Part shown: positions 2,983 through 9,891 of the stretch, one piece after another
Numbering within the stretch: position 1 is the first letter of the stretch
How the letters are laid out: every line of letters begins with the position of its first letter
From: a virus
IMG/VR virus record: IMGVR_UViG_3300030098_004447
Span: 1-37,719 of that record
DNA: 37,719 nt
Direction: 5' to 3' (one strand)
Program-made: the position numbers and the translations under genes
Notes under the pieces: model-generated
Seen by the model: only the letters and a program-made list of their open reading frames with translations
Database searches by the model: none
What the model was told of the DNA's origin: nothing

Positions 2983-3519
2983 ATTTGCAGCCAATTTCTT
3001 ATAATACGTTTCTTTATTATAATTAGCTATCAACAATGCATCACTAATATTAAAGGTCATCTTTATATTAGGAAATAACTCTTCTGCTATTCCTCTTAAA
3101 TATCTCTTCCTATCTTTCTTATCCATTCTTGGCTTACAATCATAGTGACTCATCCAAGTCCTCGGTCCAGCATATATCGGATCTAATTCAAGTGAGCCTA
3201 ATATACCTTCCCATTGTCCTAGATTTTGACCAAATGAAAACATAGAGACTACTCCATTCATAGGCATTGCATGAACAAATTCTATAAGAACTATAACATC
3301 ATCATAAGGAACATTTGTAGGGATTGTAGACATTAATGAAAATGCCATATCTCTAGGATTCTTAGGACATCTAAAACATATAACAGGATCACCATCCATT
3401 ATTTCATTTAATACTGCTACTCCTCCATTTTTTCCTGGATCAATACCAATAAATATTTTTTCACGAAGTTTATCGTCTATTATATGTTCATTTGTTTTTA
3501 AATTACCATTATATTGCAT
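2965..3519 (-). CDS. RuvC-like Holliday junction resolvase
   Basis: 184-residue protein with an RNase H-like fold signature. Residues 24-33 read IGIDPGKNGG with the first catalytic Asp (D27); LIEFVHA supplies Glu80; the C-terminal SDALLIANY supplies Asp160. The motif SFGQNLGQWEG between them is typical of phage and bacterial RuvC-like resolvases. Such enzymes cleave four-way junctions and branched replication intermediates, often before packaging. It is the last gene of the leftward replication operon; its ATG overlaps the end of the DnaB gene by 11 nt. Length is close to cellular RuvC. Confidence 0.85.
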   Translation of the reverse strand: MQYNGNLKTNEHIIDDKLREKIFIGIDPGKNGGVAVLNEIMDGDPVICFRCPKNPRDMAFSLMSTIPTNVPYDDVIVLIEFVHAMPMNGVVSMFSFGQNLGQWEGILGSLELDPIYAGPRTWMSHYDCKPRMDKKDRKRYLRGIAEELFPNIKMTFNISDALLIANYNKETYYKKLAANARQKS

Positions 3520-4843
3520 CTATTTTATCTCTCCTATATTCTTCTATTGAATTATAAATCTTTACTTTATCTCCCTCATATCCAAGTTTTGTTGAGCCTG
3601 ATGTTCCATATCTAACCTTAGAACCTATAAGTTCAATCACATTTTCTCCATCTTTAGACTTAGTCATATTAACCTTATGGTCATAATAAACAAATAGCAC
3701 ATTTTCTGCCACTTGCTCAATTGATCCACTTTCAGCTAAATCAGATAATCTAGGTTTACCATCATTCCTAGATTCTAGTCCTCTATTTAACTGAGAAAGT
3801 AGAACACAGGCACATTCTTGCTTTTTAGCCAACCATTTATAATCATTTACAAGTTTTTCAAGTTGTAATCGTCTTTCTGTAATCTTTTTATCAGGCTTTA
3901 TTAATTGTATATAATCATCAAATATAACATCAGGCTTAAATTTCTTAACTTGGGATGAAGATTCATCAAAACTAGGCATATTGTCAAACATAGCAAATCT
4001 ATCTGCACTATACTTTTCTTCTATCTTCTTTTTAGTAGCCTCTAATTCAGCCATTTTAATCGTATCACCTACATACCCTAACCTAACATCCAAATAAGAT
4101 AATTTGCCTGATTCTAGCACTATTAGCTTCTTCAACATTTCTACATTTGTCATTTCCCTATTAAATACTAGAACTTTCAACCCATTGTCAATGCAAGATT
4201 TCATCATATTTAGCATTGTAGTTGTTTTACCATGTCCTGGTCTACCACCTATCACAGTAATTTCACCTCTAGTCATACCACCTGATAGATTATCAATTCC
4301 CTCAAATCCTGTTTTTATAATATTTCTATCACTTTGAATAATATTTTCAAATGTCTCTTTCATTGATTCACCAATATCAAATGTTAATCCTGGTCTAATA
4401 TTTATAAGTTTACCAATCACACTATGTGCATCATCTAGAATATTATAAACATCTTGATTGTTAGTATAGGCAACATCATTTATTTCGTGAGTTTTGGTTA
4501 TAACTTGTCTCAATAGATGCTTTTCATACACCTGAACTGCATATCTTTTAGACATTGAAGGTGTTCCTGAATTATTTACAAGGTCGGAGACATAATAAGA
4601 CGTTACTCCTGAGTTTTTGTCCTCGTCATTGAGTCTTCCTGCAATTGTAATTATATCTATTTCTTCTCCATTTTGTGACATAGAACACAAGATAGAGTAT
4701 AACCTTTTATTTCTTTCTAGATAAAAGATTTCTTCAGATAAATATCCTGATACCTCTTCTATTAATGATGGTTGACTTATTATTGCTCCCAATATAGCAT
4801 TTTCTGCCTCTTCTGAGAAAGGCGGTAACTTTACTTTTGCCAT
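3509..4843 (-). CDS. dnaB: Replicative DNA helicase, DnaB family
   Basis: 444 residues, the usual DnaB size. The N-terminal domain (about 1-130) begins with the typical PPFSEEAENAILGAII. The RecA-like ATPase domain has Walker A GGRPGHGKTT (199-208), Walker B DVIFDD (305-310), SQLNRGLESR (350-359) and the DnaB signature RLSDLAESGSIEQ (365-377) with the arginine-finger region near the C-terminus. It unwinds DNA 5' to 3' at the phage fork. No phage primase, loader or polymerase was recognised nearby, so it probably works with host proteins. RBS AAAGGA precedes the ATG; the gene overlaps the downstream resolvase start. Confidence 0.93.
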   Translation of the reverse strand: MAKVKLPPFSEEAENAILGAIISQPSLIEEVSGYLSEEIFYLERNKRLYSILCSMSQNGEEIDIITIAGRLNDEDKNSGVTSYYVSDLVNNSGTPSMSKRYAVQVYEKHLLRQVITKTHEINDVAYTNNQDVYNILDDAHSVIGKLINIRPGLTFDIGESMKETFENIIQSDRNIIKTGFEGIDNLSGGMTRGEITVIGGRPGHGKTTTMLNMMKSCIDNGLKVLVFNREMTNVEMLKKLIVLESGKLSYLDVRLGYVGDTIKMAELEATKKKIEEKYSADRFAMFDNMPSFDESSSQVKKFKPDVIFDDYIQLIKPDKKITERRLQLEKLVNDYKWLAKKQECACVLLSQLNRGLESRNDGKPRLSDLAESGSIEQVAENVLFVYYDHKVNMTKSKDGENVIELIGSKVRYGTSGSTKLGYEGDKVKIYNSIEEYRRDKIDAI

Positions 4844-4851
4844 TGTATCCT

Positions 4852-5016
4852 TTATTTTTTATTGATGCTAATATTATTATTATAATCCTCTTTACTTGGA
4901 ATATCAAATTTATCTAAATAATCCAGCATACACTTATCGTGTACTGTTTGATACTTTCTATTAACTGATGGTCTTATTGGCTTATCGCATACTGCACAAA
5001 AAAATGGCTGTGGCAT
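4852..5016 (-). CDS. Small zinc-ribbon protein
   Basis: 54-residue protein beginning MPQPFFCAVCDKPIRPS, with a CxxC at residues 7-10 and a second His/Cys pair (HDKC) at 26-29, consistent with one bound zinc. Its ATG overlaps the methyltransferase stop (TAATG) and it ends 8 nt before the DnaB start. Too short for confident function; it may be a DNA-binding accessory or a host-takeover protein. Confidence 0.65.
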   Translation of the reverse strand: MPQPFFCAVCDKPIRPSVNRKYQTVHDKCMLDYLDKFDIPSKEDYNNNISINKK

Positions 5017-6014
5017 TATATCTCCTTTTTTAATCGTTCTATAATTTCTTGAACAATAGGAACACTAACTGCATTACCTAATTGTTTATATCTCTGAGTA
5101 TCTGATTGTCCTTCTGTCCAACCATCAGGAAATCCTTGCAATCTCTCACATTCTATAGGGGTGAGTCTGCGAATTTTAGAATTTACACTAAGCCTTATAG
5201 AGTTGTGGCAAGGGTCTGTGAGTGTAGGAGACTCATCTCTTATATTTTTATTATACATATCTAATGCTTTCACATTATATAATCCTGTTTTAGCACCCCA
5301 TCCACCACCTTCTGATTTTAATGTACAAGAAATACCCTTTGGGTCAAATACTCTTCCTGCGTCTCCATTTGCTACAGAACCTACTTGCACTAGAGCCATT
5401 TCAGCATTGCCTATTCCTTTATAGTCTCTTGCTGTAAGACAGGGCGAAACTTCCCTTCCCAATTCTCTTTTACTCGTTTCAGACTTGCTTTCGATAGGAA
5501 ATACTTTTGGTCTACGTTCTCCTCTAAGATGTCCGACAAAGAACACTCGCTCTCTATTTTGGGGTAGTACCCAGCGTGTATTACATAATTGCCATTGACC
5601 ATCATACCCAGCGTTGGCAATCTCTTGTAAACAGATGACAAAGTCACTCCCTCCTTGACTTGAGAGAAGACCTTTGACGTTTTCAAAGATGATATATCGG
5701 GGTCTTTTAGCCCTGATGATACGCATTGCTTCAAAGAATAAGCCGCTTCGTGCAGCCCTAAGTCCTCCTCCTTTTCCAGCAACTGACAAGTCTTGGCAAG
5801 GGAATCCGAAGGTGACGAGGTCGAGCTTTGGCAAATCTCTAGGCTGAATAGACTCAATTCCTCCAAGTTTTTCTGCTTCATTAAAATGTCTCCTAAATAT
5901 ATTGTTTGCATATTTGTCTATATCTGAATAACCATGCCAACCATGAGTTATTCCTGATCTTTTTATAGCTAGAGAGAATCCACCTATACCACTAAATAAG
6001 TCTAAATGATTCAT
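5016..6014 (-). CDS. DNA (cytosine-5) methyltransferase
   Basis: 332-residue C5-cytosine methyltransferase with all core motifs in order: motif I DLFSGIGGF (5-13), motif IV GFPCQDLSVAG with catalytic Cys73, motif VI ENVKG (111-115), motif VIII QNRERVFFVG (152-161), a variable target-recognition region (about 175-280), motif IX RRLTPIECERLQGFP (282-296) and motif X QLGNAVSVPI (311-320). It transfers a methyl group from S-adenosylmethionine to C5 of cytosine at a site that cannot be read from the sequence. No cognate restriction endonuclease is next to it, so it is probably a solitary protective enzyme. Start ATG at 6014 overlaps the upstream gene's stop (ATGA). Confidence 0.94.
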   Translation of the reverse strand: MNHLDLFSGIGGFSLAIKRSGITHGWHGYSDIDKYANNIFRRHFNEAEKLGGIESIQPRDLPKLDLVTFGFPCQDLSVAGKGGGLRAARSGLFFEAMRIIRAKRPRYIIFENVKGLLSSQGGSDFVICLQEIANAGYDGQWQLCNTRWVLPQNRERVFFVGHLRGERRPKVFPIESKSETSKRELGREVSPCLTARDYKGIGNAEMALVQVGSVANGDAGRVFDPKGISCTLKSEGGGWGAKTGLYNVKALDMYNKNIRDESPTLTDPCHNSIRLSVNSKIRRLTPIECERLQGFPDGWTEGQSDTQRYKQLGNAVSVPIVQEIIERLKKEI

Positions 6015-6151
6015 TCTTCTTCTCTCTGTAATATTCCTAATATTGCTACACTATGTTCACCACATTTCCTACAAATACCATCATTCCAATCTTTATTGTA
6101 TTTTCTTAGAGGTGCTTCACAACACTCACTATATTTTGTTGAATCTATCAT
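6011..6151 (-). CDS. Small zinc-ribbon protein upstream of the methyltransferase
   Basis: 46-residue protein with CC at residues 10-11 and CRKCGEH at 27-33, the pattern of a short zinc ribbon. Strong RBS AAGGAG lies 6 nt before the ATG at 6151, and its stop overlaps the methyltransferase start (ATGA), so the two are translationally coupled. The RBS and leader overlap, on the opposite strand, the promoter proposed for the structured RNA at 6173. Function unknown. Confidence 0.65.
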   Translation of the reverse strand: MIDSTKYSECCEAPLRKYNKDWNDGICRKCGEHSVAILGILQREEE

Positions 6152-6167
6152 GTAATCTCCTTATAAT
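6139..6167 (+). promoter_or_regulatory. Sigma70-type promoter for structured RNA
   Basis: TTGAAT at 6139-6144, a 17-nt spacer, then a perfect TATAAT at 6162-6167. The expected start, about 6 nt downstream, falls on the first G of a GGG at 6173, which opens the first hairpin of the RNA. The promoter faces right, against the flanking leftward genes, and no plausible rightward gene follows it. Confidence 0.6.
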
Positions 6168-6172
6168 TTTTT

Positions 6173-6549
6173 GGGTGGAATATATAAACATCCCACCCTA
6201 TCTGTCTCTATGGTGCAGTAATTACCATTACTTGTTTTTGTTTACACCTACAGAATAACAGGGCAGATAGTTAAGGGATATATTTGCGGATATATCATCA
6301 TTCACCAAGGTTATTTAGAAACGTATCTGCCCAAATTTATCACGTTAGAGGGTAATACAATATGTTAGGTAATCCGATTAACTAAGGAATAAGGATGCCC
6401 TTCAAAACATCCTAAGTATTACCCCATTAACGTGTTTTTTTGTAAAGGGAGTTTTTATACTGCAACTTCCAGCCAGTTGTATTCGTCTCTATGGTATAAG
6501 TAGATTGACTCGTTACTAGGAAATTACCTCTTATACCTACGAATTTTTT
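6173..6549 (+). ncRNA. Candidate structured non-coding RNA, 269-377 nt, multi-domain
   Basis: Longest stretch without a credible gene in the leftward block. Read on the plus strand it folds into a series of domains. Hairpin A is GGGTGG/CCACCC (6173-6198). Motif copy 1 is TCTGT/ACAGA and GGTG/CACC around an internal loop (6201-6254), capped by AGTAAT-TACC-ATTACT. Domain B is GGGCAGATA/TATCTGCCC (6261-6332), enclosing GATATAT/ATATATC. Domain C is CACGTTA/TAACGTG plus GGGTAATAC/GTATTACCC (6341-6434), enclosing two hairpins as a three-way junction and followed by T7 (6435-6441). Next are hairpin GCAACT/AGTTGT (6462-6480) and motif copy 2, ATTCGT/ACGAAT and GGTATAAG/CTTATACC (6481-6544), followed by T6. 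Promoter and two terminator-like ends suggest an autonomous transcript. The strand is inferred; family not recognised. Confidence 0.65.
6435..6441 (+). terminator. T-tract after the three-way-junction domain
   Basis: Seven T residues directly follow the closing strand TAACGTG of domain C of the structured RNA, whose outer stem (7 + 9 bp) is the strongest in the region. This gives a possible 3' end of about 269 nt. A second hairpin-plus-T6 at 6544-6549 could terminate read-through. Confidence 0.45.
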
Positions 6550-6746
6550 ATATAATTCCAATGGTTTGAACCTGCCTCTCTCATTGCACACTTAGAACAT
6601 ATTATGCCATGCATTTCTGTTCCTAGAACACTCTTTATTGATGGACTTGGATACCATTCATAAAACATTGCTCTCATTTTATAAGAACCACAAGAGAAAC
6701 AGGTTCTTGTTTCTTTTTTACCTCTTGGTAATAACCATTTCTCCAT
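6537..6746 (-). CDS. Small zinc-ribbon protein
   Basis: 69-residue protein with two CxxC pairs, CFSCG (16-20) and CSKC (about 50-53), a classic zinc ribbon. Its ATG lies inside the end of the upstream HTH gene (29-nt overlap) and no strong RBS is seen, so coupled translation is likely. The stop codon (TAG, 6537-6539) falls inside the last stem of the oppositely oriented structured RNA, so the two transcripts would overlap by about 13 nt. Function unknown. Confidence 0.6.
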   Translation of the reverse strand: MEKWLLPRGKKETRTCFSCGSYKMRAMFYEWYPSPSIKSVLGTEMHGIICSKCAMREAGSNHWNYIKNS

Positions 6747-6876
6747 ATAGTTTTTTCTTATGCCTATAAAATGTTGCTCTTGAAATATTTGCCTTTTGGC
6801 AAACCCAATTTACATCTTTTCTAAGCATTTTTTTGAGAAAAATTAATACCTTGAGTTTTGTATTTAAGCTAAGCAT
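6718..6876 (-). CDS. Small helix-turn-helix protein
   Basis: 52-residue basic protein. Residues about 18-40 (RKDVNWVCQKANISRATFYR) have the spacing of a helix-turn-helix, with ISRATFYRHKKKL as a likely recognition helix. Its ATG overlaps the stop of the SSB-like gene (TAATG). A DNA-binding regulator or recombination accessory is plausible but not proven. Confidence 0.55.
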   Translation of the reverse strand: MLSLNTKLKVLIFLKKMLRKDVNWVCQKANISRATFYRHKKKLYGEMVITKR

Positions 6877-7475
6877 TAAAATGGTAGGTCTGCTACTGCA
6901 AAGTCCTTAACTTTACCATCTGTCCAAGCCATAAAATCTTTAACTTTGTAGGATGTTCTAGTTTCCCCATCTTTTACATATTTCTGAATATCGATAAAAC
7001 CCATAACAGGCTTACCAATAATATCTGATTCTTCTAGTTTGGGAAACTGCTTAACCATACGTTTTTCACCATCTACATCAACCTCTATATCAGGACATTC
7101 TACTCTAATAGTTTCACAAAAGTTTAAGTATCTTTCATTTGCTCCATTATTAGCTTCAAATGAATCTCCTGGCTTTGGGTTTAAGAACATAAATATACCA
7201 TTAGCCCAAATCTCTTTACCTACAAAAGCAGAGCCACTAATCTCCCCATTTTCAGTAGGGTATTTCTTCTGTGAGCATTCTTCTGCAATTTCATAAATAA
7301 TATTATAAACTATTGCTTTATGTTTACCTTTAACATCTACTTCTCTAGTAGTAACTTTCTTGCAATGCATTGGATACAATTGCTTTGGAATCAGAGAAAC
7401 ATTAGTATTTTCTTTTGGGTCATAATAATGCATATTTGTTTTATCTCCTATATTTATTTCGTTTACTGATGTCAT
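6876..7475 (-). CDS. Putative single-stranded DNA-binding protein
   Basis: 199-residue acidic protein directly downstream (3 nt) of the annealing protein. The C-terminus ends DFAVADLPF, which resembles the acidic tip ending in Pro-Phe by which bacterial and phage SSBs recruit partners. The body is predicted beta-rich (for example IVYNIIYEIAEECS, ANGIFMFLNPKPG), compatible with an OB fold. Position between recombinase and helicase genes fits an ssDNA-binding role in replication and recombination. No close family could be named with certainty; similarity to phage recombination-associated proteins of DUF669 type is possible. Confidence 0.55.
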   Translation of the reverse strand: MTSVNEINIGDKTNMHYYDPKENTNVSLIPKQLYPMHCKKVTTREVDVKGKHKAIVYNIIYEIAEECSQKKYPTENGEISGSAFVGKEIWANGIFMFLNPKPGDSFEANNGANERYLNFCETIRVECPDIEVDVDGEKRMVKQFPKLEESDIIGKPVMGFIDIQKYVKDGETRTSYKVKDFMAWTDGKVKDFAVADLPF

Positions 7476-7477
7476 TT

Positions 7478-8083
7478 TTATCCTTTCATTGATGTTAGTT
7501 TTCTAATTGTTGCCTCATAATTCGTAGAATTAATAGACAAGTCTTCCATTTTAGGTTTGATAACATCCCAATTACCAACCTCTTTGCTTAAATCTGTAAT
7601 AGATTTAATTTGGTCTAAATCAAGTTCGAGATCAGGAACTTGTTTTCTATATACATCATCTGCTACATTACAGAGACGATTAACTGCTACTTTAAAGCAA
7701 TCACTATTGGCTGCCTTTAGATCGTTCCCTAGGTCTACATAACCTTTTTGATTCTTGGCTATCCTATGGGCGGCAACACTATCAAAATATCTCTCAACTC
7801 CATGATCTATAATAGTCAATCTACCATGTAGAGATATAACTTGATCTCCTATAAATTCGTATTTTATAATCTCCCATTTCCATATTGGATAATGAGCATT
7901 TAACTGCTTTCGCATATAAGCCTCATCAACATAATCAAAGCCACCCTTAGCCTTGACAAATGCTTTTGGTGTAGGCACACTTGAAATAGAATCATGTTTA
8001 GATTGTAGGTTATCTTCTATCTCTAATAAACCACCATTCGTATGATTTTCTTTAACTTTATCTAGCATATTTTCTTGACTCAT
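7478..8083 (-). CDS. Rad52-type single-strand annealing protein (Sak-like)
   Basis: 201 residues. The core, residues about 47-147, carries features of Rad52-superfamily phage annealases: KGGFDYVDEAYMRKQLNAHY followed by WKWEI, alternating beta strands GDQVISLHGRLTI, and AANSDCFKVAVNRLCNVADDVY, matching the usual K-x-A-x-SDA-x-KRAA...G-x-x-x-Y region. Such proteins anneal complementary strands in phage recombination with an exonuclease partner; the Cas4-like nuclease two genes upstream is the obvious candidate. RBS AAAGGAGA precedes the ATG. Subfamily assignment (Sak versus DdrA-like) is uncertain. Confidence 0.7.
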   Translation of the reverse strand: MSQENMLDKVKENHTNGGLLEIEDNLQSKHDSISSVPTPKAFVKAKGGFDYVDEAYMRKQLNAHYPIWKWEIIKYEFIGDQVISLHGRLTIIDHGVERYFDSVAAHRIAKNQKGYVDLGNDLKAANSDCFKVAVNRLCNVADDVYRKQVPDLELDLDQIKSITDLSKEVGNWDVIKPKMEDLSINSTNYEATIRKLTSMKG

Positions 8084-8093
8084 ATAATCTCCT

Positions 8094-8393
8094 TTAATAT
8101 TTTTTTATTCCAAGCTCAGTAAACTGTTCAGTAAGCTGTTCATTAAACTTATCATTAGCTTTATTTTGATATTTATATTTTTTATTTTTATTGCTACACA
8201 TTTTACAGATTTCGCAATTTGAATCTAATAGTTTATAATATTCTTGATCAACCTCTTCTATCATTTCTTCATATTTTATACCACCACTAGACCACATTTT
8301 GCAATGGGTATCATTATTGTAAAATATGTGATATTTAGTGATCTTATTCTTATGAATCTTGCTCTTGGCAGATGATAATAACTTTATTTTCAT
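8094..8393 (-). CDS. Hypothetical Lys-rich protein with Cys cluster
   Basis: 99-residue basic protein between the Cas4-like nuclease and the annealing protein, which suggests membership in the recombination operon. Contains CEICKMC (about residues 60-66), possibly metal-binding, and a Lys/Asn-rich C-terminal half. RBS AAAGGA precedes the ATG, which abuts the nuclease stop. No family recognised. Confidence 0.6.
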   Translation of the reverse strand: MKIKLLSSAKSKIHKNKITKYHIFYNNDTHCKMWSSGGIKYEEMIEEVDQEYYKLLDSNCEICKMCSNKNKKYKYQNKANDKFNEQLTEQFTELGIKKY

Positions 8394-9206
8394 TTATAAT
8401 CCTTTATTTGCATCTTCTTGGCATCTATCCTTGAAATTACAATACTGACATTCCCACGTTGCTACAGGGGATACATCGTCTTGTAAAGTAGGTAGACTAG
8501 AATTGGAATGTTGTTTATTGATCCTTTCCCAAAAACCAAGGGCAGTCAAGAGTCTATCTTTACTGACCTCTTTATAACGTAACATGGAATTGTCTTTGTT
8601 ATAATATAAAATATACATCCCATCTAGCCTACCATACTCTTTCTGAACCCACAAACCATAAGTTGCTAATTGCAATTCTTGATGAATTGAAGGCTCTCTT
8701 CTCTCCTTCATCCTAGAGAAATTCTTTCTGTACTGGAAAGCACCAATGCTCTTGATATCATACAGATATACTCTTCCATCTCCTACGCATACTAGCAAAT
8801 CAAGAAATCCTCTGACTCTTATTTTTTTTAATATTATTTCTTTTTCTGTATATATATTATTTATATATATATTATATATACTAAAGTAAGAGTCACTTTT
8901 TTCAATTTTTTGAAATGCATCTTGAATGTCTTTATGTATTATTTCACCTAATCTAAAGAGACGTCTCACTCTCTTGTCGATAGTATTTGTAGGTTCGGCT
9001 CTCAATATAGTCTCATAGTATATTTTCCTAGAACACATCCCTGCAGAAGATGGTTTATAGTAATGAATATCCTTAGGCTTAATTTTATCTAGTTCTTCTC
9101 TTTCCTTCTTCTTAATTTCTAGAATATGATCATTGTATATCGATTGAATATCAATTGGGTTTTTCACGATTTTACTTTCCTTTATTTTTGGTTTTTTTGG
9201 GTGCAT
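8394..9206 (-). CDS. Cas4-like PD-(D/E)XK nuclease with Fe-S cysteines
   Basis: 270-residue nuclease of the Cas4/RecB type. The catalytic motifs are in order: GEIIH with His91, GFLDLLV with Asp136, LYDIKS with Asp150-x-Lys152, and the helix QELQLATYG (177-184). One Cys (C58, in GMCSRKIYYE) and a C-terminal WECQYCNFKDRC (C253, C256, C262) form the four-Cys arrangement of the Fe-S cluster in Cas4/AddB-like enzymes. It probably degrades one DNA strand to feed the Rad52-like annealing protein. No CRISPR array or other cas genes are present. It is the first gene of the leftward replication operon. No Shine-Dalgarno is obvious before its ATG; the leader holds an inverted repeat instead. Confidence 0.85.
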   Translation of the reverse strand: MHPKKPKIKESKIVKNPIDIQSIYNDHILEIKKKEREELDKIKPKDIHYYKPSSAGMCSRKIYYETILRAEPTNTIDKRVRRLFRLGEIIHKDIQDAFQKIEKSDSYFSIYNIYINNIYTEKEIILKKIRVRGFLDLLVCVGDGRVYLYDIKSIGAFQYRKNFSRMKERREPSIHQELQLATYGLWVQKEYGRLDGMYILYYNKDNSMLRYKEVSKDRLLTALGFWERINKQHSNSSLPTLQDDVSPVATWECQYCNFKDRCQEDANKGL

Positions 9207-9366
9207 AAATATACATCAGTTTGCATCATTTTGCAAAATAGTATTTTCAATATTTTAATCTTTTTTTTAATTTAATTAAATGATACATTAAAGTCTCATA
9301 TTATAATATAAATGATACTTTTTTTTTCAAGTCAAAATATATAATATATGATTAAAAAGTATATTA
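9207..9366 (-). promoter_or_regulatory. Promoter/operator region of the replication operon
   Basis: Very AT-rich gap between the terminator at 9.38 kb and the nuclease gene. On the minus strand TTGACT (9335-9330) is followed at 19 nt by TATATT (9310-9305), with TATAAT slightly further on (9305-9300). The sequence GTATCATTT occurs twice (9318-9310 and 9286-9278), 32 bp apart, about three helical turns. An inverted repeat TTTGCA-N6-TGCAAA (9220-9237) lies just before the start codon. This arrangement suits a regulated promoter, but the regulator is unknown. Confidence 0.45.
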
Positions 9367-9405
9367 TTTTTTTTAAAAAAAGATAGGGGAGATAATCCCC
9401 TATCT
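9367..9405 (-). terminator. Intrinsic terminator after the 9.4-13.4 kb gene block
   Basis: Perfect 9-bp stem AGATAGGGG (9381-9389) / CCCCTATCT (9397-9405) with a 7-nt loop. Read on the minus strand it is followed by TTTTTT (9380-9375). It lies 15 nt after the stop of the leftward gene at 9421, a textbook rho-independent terminator. Confidence 0.85.
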
Positions 9406-9420
9406 AATATTATCTTACTA

Positions 9421-9891
9421 TTAATACTCTTCATACTCATCTATGAGTTCACCTCTACCACTAATAAATCCTCTAAATTGGATTCCAGGTTCATTATATG
9501 TTAGTTCAATCCATAGATTAGGAAAGATTAATGCTACTTTTTCTAACCAAGGTATTGGTGGATTCCAAGCTGTGTTAAAAGTAAACCTTAATTCGTTATG
9601 TTTATATTTCATTATACAATCTGATGCATCCCATTTAGTACCCCAATTGTCGCAGCACCATTCATACCACCATATAGTAGTTCCATCTTCTAATTTATAT
9701 GGCTTCTCCTTGGTAGTTCCTTCTAGTTGACTAGGCATACATATTATAGAGCCAAGCAAGTTTGTTATACATTCTTTAGATGAACTATAGATTAGGGTTT
9801 CTCCTAGTAATCTTTTTAGTCTATTAAAATCAGGCTCTGCATCTTTTCCATCTGCTTTTATTATTAAGTTATTTTCACACCAATTAGGCAT
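9421..9891 (-). CDS. MPNWCxN-type (Api92/DUF1281-like) protein
   Basis: 156 residues beginning MPNWCENNLII, the hallmark of the YubB/Api92-like family found in phages and plasmids. Other family features are WWYEWCCDNWGTKWDA in the middle and FNTAWNPPIPW followed by a C-terminal GIQFRG region. The fold is thought to be ferredoxin-like and the function is unknown. It is the last gene before the 9.38-kb terminator, and its start overlaps the HNH gene by 8 nt. Confidence 0.8.
   Translation of the reverse strand: MPNWCENNLIIKADGKDAEPDFNRLKRLLGETLIYSSSKECITNLLGSIICMPSQLEGTTKEKPYKLEDGTTIWWYEWCCDNWGTKWDASDCIMKYKHNELRFTFNTAWNPPIPWLEKVALIFPNLWIELTYNEPGIQFRGFISGRGELIDEYEEY

Follow-up and report, generated by a model that had tools for sequence, protein, structure and literature searches.

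The Noncoding Interval and Its Gene Context

The window considered in the present work, i.e., the whole stretch of DNA that was analysed, is a virus record from IMG/VR, 37,719 bases long (32% G+C). Its packaging and structural genes run rightward; a leftward replication block includes a DnaB-like helicase (3509-4843), a C5 methyltransferase (5016-6014) and an exonuclease-like gene (8394-9206). Within this block, two phage genes are separated by a gap of about 385 nt (6536-6152), which raises the question of whether it carries a structured RNA, on which strand, and what such an RNA might do. The original prediction, made from the letters alone, described about 380 nt without a credible gene and placed there an autonomous, multi-domain RNA transcribed from the plus strand, opposite to the operon. 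The absence of credible ORFs was borne out on both strands, from the end of the 69-aa ORF (6537) to 6152. The interval and its neighbours are the following:

6537-6746, minus strand: 69-aa Cys-rich ORF, upstream of the RNA, with a relative in the locus L002 (59% identity).
6152-6536, minus strand, sense to the operon: noncoding structured interval, defined by the lack of credible ORFs and by its folding z-score.
6011-6151, minus strand: 46-aa Cys-rich ORF, MIDSTKYSECCEAPL...CRKCGEH..., recognised from its sequence and translation.
5016-6014, minus strand: C5-cytosine DNA methyltransferase (PF00145, E = 6.7e-65; PHROG DNA methyltransferase).

The 46-aa ORF is absent from ORF lists limited to at least 60 aa and did not match any Pfam family. 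Its start codon (6151-6149) is preceded by an AAGGAG (6162-6157), and its end overlaps the methyltransferase start by ATGA; the translation of the methyltransferase is probably coupled to it.

Folding, Domains, and Strand

When 6150-6560 was folded, the minus strand reached -108.7 kcal/mol (z = -4.30) and the plus strand -95.7 kcal/mol (z = -2.56), with 0 of 100 shuffles as stable in either case. A fold scan across the whole window, covering both strands in segments of 150 nt (1002 window-strand combinations), ranked 6151-6300 on the minus strand fourth by z, and 6301-6450 was unremarkable on both strands (-1.2). The several stable stems that had been anticipated were found, including a long two-part helix, and the description of a large multi-domain structured RNA is supported. 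Besides the module treated in the next section, the predicted domains are:

6481-6544, minus strand: hairpin A, AUUCG-UA-GGUAUAAG...CUUAUACC-AUAGAGA-CGAAU, with a local fold of -15.3 kcal/mol, overlapping the 69-aa gene at its stop codon.
6341-6434, minus strand: domain B, CACGUUA/UAACGUG and GGGUAAUAC/GUAUUACCC, a long helix compatible with a three-way junction.
6200-6255, minus strand: hairpin C, UUCUG-UA-GGUG...CACC-AUAGAGA-CAGAU, with the same internal loop as hairpin A.
6173-6198, minus strand: hairpin D, GGGUGGGAU...AUUCCACCC, immediately 5' of the ribosome-binding site.

A 16-nt direct repeat (6199-6214 and 6480-6495) accompanies hairpins A and C, from which we infer that the two would share an asymmetric loop, G-UA-GGU/ACC-AUAGAGA-C, set in different flanking helices; in the minimum-energy fold of hairpin C, part of this loop is paired differently. 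A simple pattern search did not retrieve the repeat from the loci that it covered.

Taken singly, hairpins A, C, and D (the last with -17.3 kcal/mol sense vs. -10.1 antisense) and the junction domain fold better on the minus strand, whereas for the module alone (80 nt) the plus strand has a small advantage (-23.5 vs. -20.6). Modelled folding as a whole favours the sense (minus) strand, short of proof. Moreover, all the homologous modules lie on the sense strand of their own operons, and the G-U pairs in the closing stem (P1) of L025 and L002 would turn into A-C mismatches if the opposite strand were read.

The case for the plus strand had included a promoter:

6139-6167, plus strand: TTGAAT-17-TATAAT promoter-like site (10/12 match).

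The sequence is indeed present, but 19 promoter-like sites were counted in 5000-9000 vs. 18.5 expected from shuffles, four of them scoring 10/12; for this reason, the site is weak evidence. It also overlaps the start region of the leftward 46-aa ORF, and we judge it incidental. On the antisense strand of the relatives, nothing similar turned up in L002 or L025, and a single 9/12 match in L006. As for the two hairpin-plus-T-tract ends proposed on the same strand, neither was flagged by the terminator scan, although hairpins near T tracts are visible. An autonomous RNA made from the plus strand, antisense to the operon, would be in keeping with the promoter match, with these hairpins followed by T tracts, with a plus strand that beats its shuffles too, and with the stability of the module on that strand; the weaker overall folding, a promoter frequency at chance, the orientation of the homologues, and the G-U pairs, which fit the sense strand only, make it very unlikely. 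Correcting the strand aims any follow-up at the right transcript.

Two other regions gave the strongest folding z-scores of the scan, both on the minus strand: 6676-6825 (-5.6), overlapping the start of the 69-aa gene, and 9301-9450 (-4.7), which extends from the gap beyond 9206 into the ORF that comes next.

A Conserved Module in Other Phage Loci

Searches that started from the 69-aa ORF, the genes around it, and the methyltransferase reached relatives with the same gene order. In L006 and L002, the noncoding stretch that fills the slot before the Cys-rich ORF and the methyltransferase is shorter (z = -2.42 and -2.89, respectively); a second contig, behind L007, gave the same matches as L006. 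The link between L006 and the window came first from BLAST and was weak (E = 0.06). L025, in which the module sits between two ORFs, was located by a loop-sequence pattern, sequence alone giving an E-value near 0.065 if a collection of 60 Gb is assumed. It is an otherwise different phage contig, whose ORFs include, by reading, Erf-like and primase/helicase-like ones. The case for its putative homology is made by the closing stem, which was not used in the search; since the loop sequences alone served to find L025, its P1 represents an independent check. A covariance model built on the window and L025 matched L006 (E = 1.7e-4 over 343 kb) and did not find L002, which was included on the basis of synteny, the motifs GUUCCU and CUUAGAUGAAU, and a P1 near-identical to that of L006. 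The module and its homologues are:

6256-6334, minus strand: conserved module of about 75 nt, with homologues in L025, L006, and L002 and covariation in P1.
6332-6324/6269-6261, minus strand: stem P1.
6323-6317 and 6311-6300, minus strand: joining strands CGUUUCU and ACCUUGGUGAAU, respectively.
6296-6290/6283-6277, minus strand: hairpin P2, with the loop CCGCAA and the joining sequence CUUAAC.
L025, 2302-2380: homologue found by loop sequences.
L006, 2729-2816: homologue R1, matched by the covariance model.
L002, about 3096-3176: homologue placed by synteny and motif.

All 36 cells of P1 (9 pairs in four sequences) are standard pairs, and both sides have changed at 5/9 pairs, in an alignment that is a composite of P1 and the conserved joining strands, the internal variable parts being omitted. 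The observed pairing and covariation values were reached in 1-3 of 500 shuffles (1/500 for the covariation score), and slid registers left 31-50% of positions paired. The original prediction had named covariation among homologues as a test, and it is seen here in P1. According to these alignments, P1 appears supported at a level below R-scape grade, given four sequences, three of which come from related phages. P2 could not be aligned in L006 and L002, and the compensatory changes typical of cis-acting leaders are apparent, in these sequences, for P1 only. A pseudoknot between a joining strand and the P2 loop (CUUG with CAAG), considered by eye, is not proposed here: it is possible in L025, weaker in the window, and not possible in L002.

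Further searches did not enlarge this set. When the region and the modules were compared with 50,697 phage records by BLASTN, no real match emerged; a fecal phage hit, MT836453, covers an ORF and lacks the motif. The pattern scans, which covered viral and bacterial genome contigs, returned many matches attributable to chance, in which no clean closing stem was adjacent. Among the candidates set aside, L035 falls inside an ORF on the other strand, L021 has an imperfect, mismatched stem, and four matches in genome contigs have no stem. A hammerhead-like CUGAUGA in L002 found no support in Rfam.

The slot itself is variable. Other genes occupy the space between the 69-aa ORF and the methyltransferase in L008, where one is PAPS-reductase-like, and in L010 and L011, which carry different ORFs. 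Structured gaps of another kind, none with the module, are present in L068, L070, and L071. The equivalent slot of L068 (7896-8120) is noncoding, with several predicted hairpins; it follows an ORF of 66 aa that is a relative of the 61-aa one in L006.

Outside the module, no homologue was found for the window domains (B, and hairpins A and C), and at the place of domain B the folds of L006 and L002 show an unrelated hairpin. One may then suppose that the module is real and the remainder is untranslated filler or decayed accessory sequence, structured without a role; the flat z-score of 6301-6450 and the absence from the window of the 61-66 aa ORF found in the slot of L006 and L068 would agree with this. 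However, the two-part helix and the repeated internal loop look maintained, and the z-score of -4.3 applies to the whole interval, so that we regard filler as quite unlikely.

Comparison with Known RNA Families

At the gathering cut-off, Rfam 15 gave no match in the whole window, nor in L002, L006, L008, L010, and L011. A relaxed search of 6000-6700 retrieved chance microRNA matches only (E = 3-4.2), and the same search of L025 likewise gave nothing beyond chance. By Rfam 15, the RNA does not belong to GOLLD, ROOL, the riboswitches, or the small ribozymes, in agreement with the earlier statement that it could not be placed among the large structured RNAs known from phages and marine metagenomes.

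The closest precedent in style is represented by the manA and wcaG RNAs, structured domains of marine phages mostly known from marine metagenomes and cyanophages; manA RNAs lie in likely 5' UTRs of phage genes (PMC2864571). As in that case, a phage RNA domain is located upstream of genes; unlike them, the context here is a Cys-rich protein and a C5 methyltransferase instead of sugar metabolism or photosynthesis, and the Rfam models do not match. Many GOLLD RNAs exceed 800 nt, and both GOLLD and ROOL, which are several hundred nt long, are often found near tRNA islands (PMC12286853). The RNA described here resembles them in being phage-borne, multi-domain, and of no known function, but it measures 385 nt, with a common core of only about 75 nt, has no Rfam match, and lies in a 37.7-kb window where ARAGORN found zero tRNA genes.

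The module is a new RNA family of a known kind, based on four sequences. It is not a new class of autonomous antisense RNA. The family consists of a small and testable RNA domain, outside Rfam, found in phages that otherwise differ; in three of these phages it is placed before a DNA-methyltransferase gene pair.

Possible Role of the RNA

The distance from the module to the next start codon is 16-20 nt in L006 and L002, about 33 nt in L025, and 109 nt in the window. As in cis-acting leaders, a folded domain on the sense strand stands close before a start codon in L025, L006, and L002. A leader or intercistronic element acting in cis fits best because the module is on the sense strand and close to start codons; we give a probability of about 45% to the reading of the RNA as an intercistronic element controlling the Cys-rich/methyltransferase pair. 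The structured RNA would be carried within the mRNA of the leftward replication genes and would act in cis on the 46-aa Cys-rich gene and the overlapping methyltransferase, perhaps also on the helicase beyond. Its working part is likely the module of about 75 nt (P1, the conserved joining strands, and P2), which could bind a protein or a small molecule and in this way alter the translation or the readthrough of the downstream pair. If the RNA is regulatory, it offers a handle on gene control inside the dense operons of uncultured phages.

Some observations run counter to this reading, besides the small set of four sequences and a P2 that does not align in two of them. In the window, two more hairpins occupy the 109 nt between the module and the start codon. 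Moreover, no regulated gene is common to all four loci: in the window, L006, and L002, the module precedes a small Cys-rich ORF overlapping a methyltransferase ORF, and the next ORF downstream in L025, which has a good ribosome-binding site, is a different gene; a riboswitch would be expected to control one type of gene in unrelated genomes. Sequestration of the ribosome-binding site was considered as a common mechanism and rejected; its predicted partners differ in each sequence and are unconserved, and for this reason no switching mechanism is supported.

L025 (2904-3447) and the window (6011-6151) both have small Cys-rich ORFs that resemble each other in their CC...CxxCxEH pattern, which suggests a gene pool common to the two phages.

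The main rival to the cis-acting element is a trans-acting RNA, processed out of the operon mRNA or else transcribed from a leftward promoter of its own within the operon, which would be a stable RNA or RNP having the module as its core. The size and the multi-domain structure seen in the window, the long spacer before the next gene, the different gene downstream in L025, and a surrounding slot as variable as an accessory-element site all speak in its favour. Nevertheless, the related stretches measure about 167 and 185 nt vs. 385 nt in the window, the module alone is conserved, and in 3/4 cases it directly precedes a start codon; we consider such an RNA possible, with less confidence than the cis-acting element.

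A little more doubtful still is the idea of an aptamer-like core, binding a protein of the phage or the host or a metabolite, of a new family that times replication-region genes in unrelated uncultured phages. It is with comparable reserve that we propose that large phage-specific domains, such as the junction and the paired G-UA-GGU/ACC-AUAGAGA-C loops, may have been built around this core.

Finally, the element might act in cis on transcription. The put RNAs of phage HK022 are short antiterminator domains, located on the sense strand of early operons, that make RNA polymerase read through terminators in cis. The likeness would lie in a short RNA domain on the sense strand of a phage operon, acting in cis; the window RNA differs in being mid-operon rather than beside an early promoter. 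A put-like antiterminator or an early-operon attenuator would suit the presence of a folded RNA among the replication genes in both types of phage, the P1 of L002 being followed by a T run and then by the ribosome-binding site, and L071 having a T run with a hairpin in a similar position. No T run follows P1 in the window, L006, or L025, and we hold this kind of element to be unlikely.

In both L071 (3300-3400) and L002 (3160-3195), a hairpin and a T run lead straight into AGGAG and then a start codon, an arrangement that looks like a terminator overlapping the ribosome-binding site.
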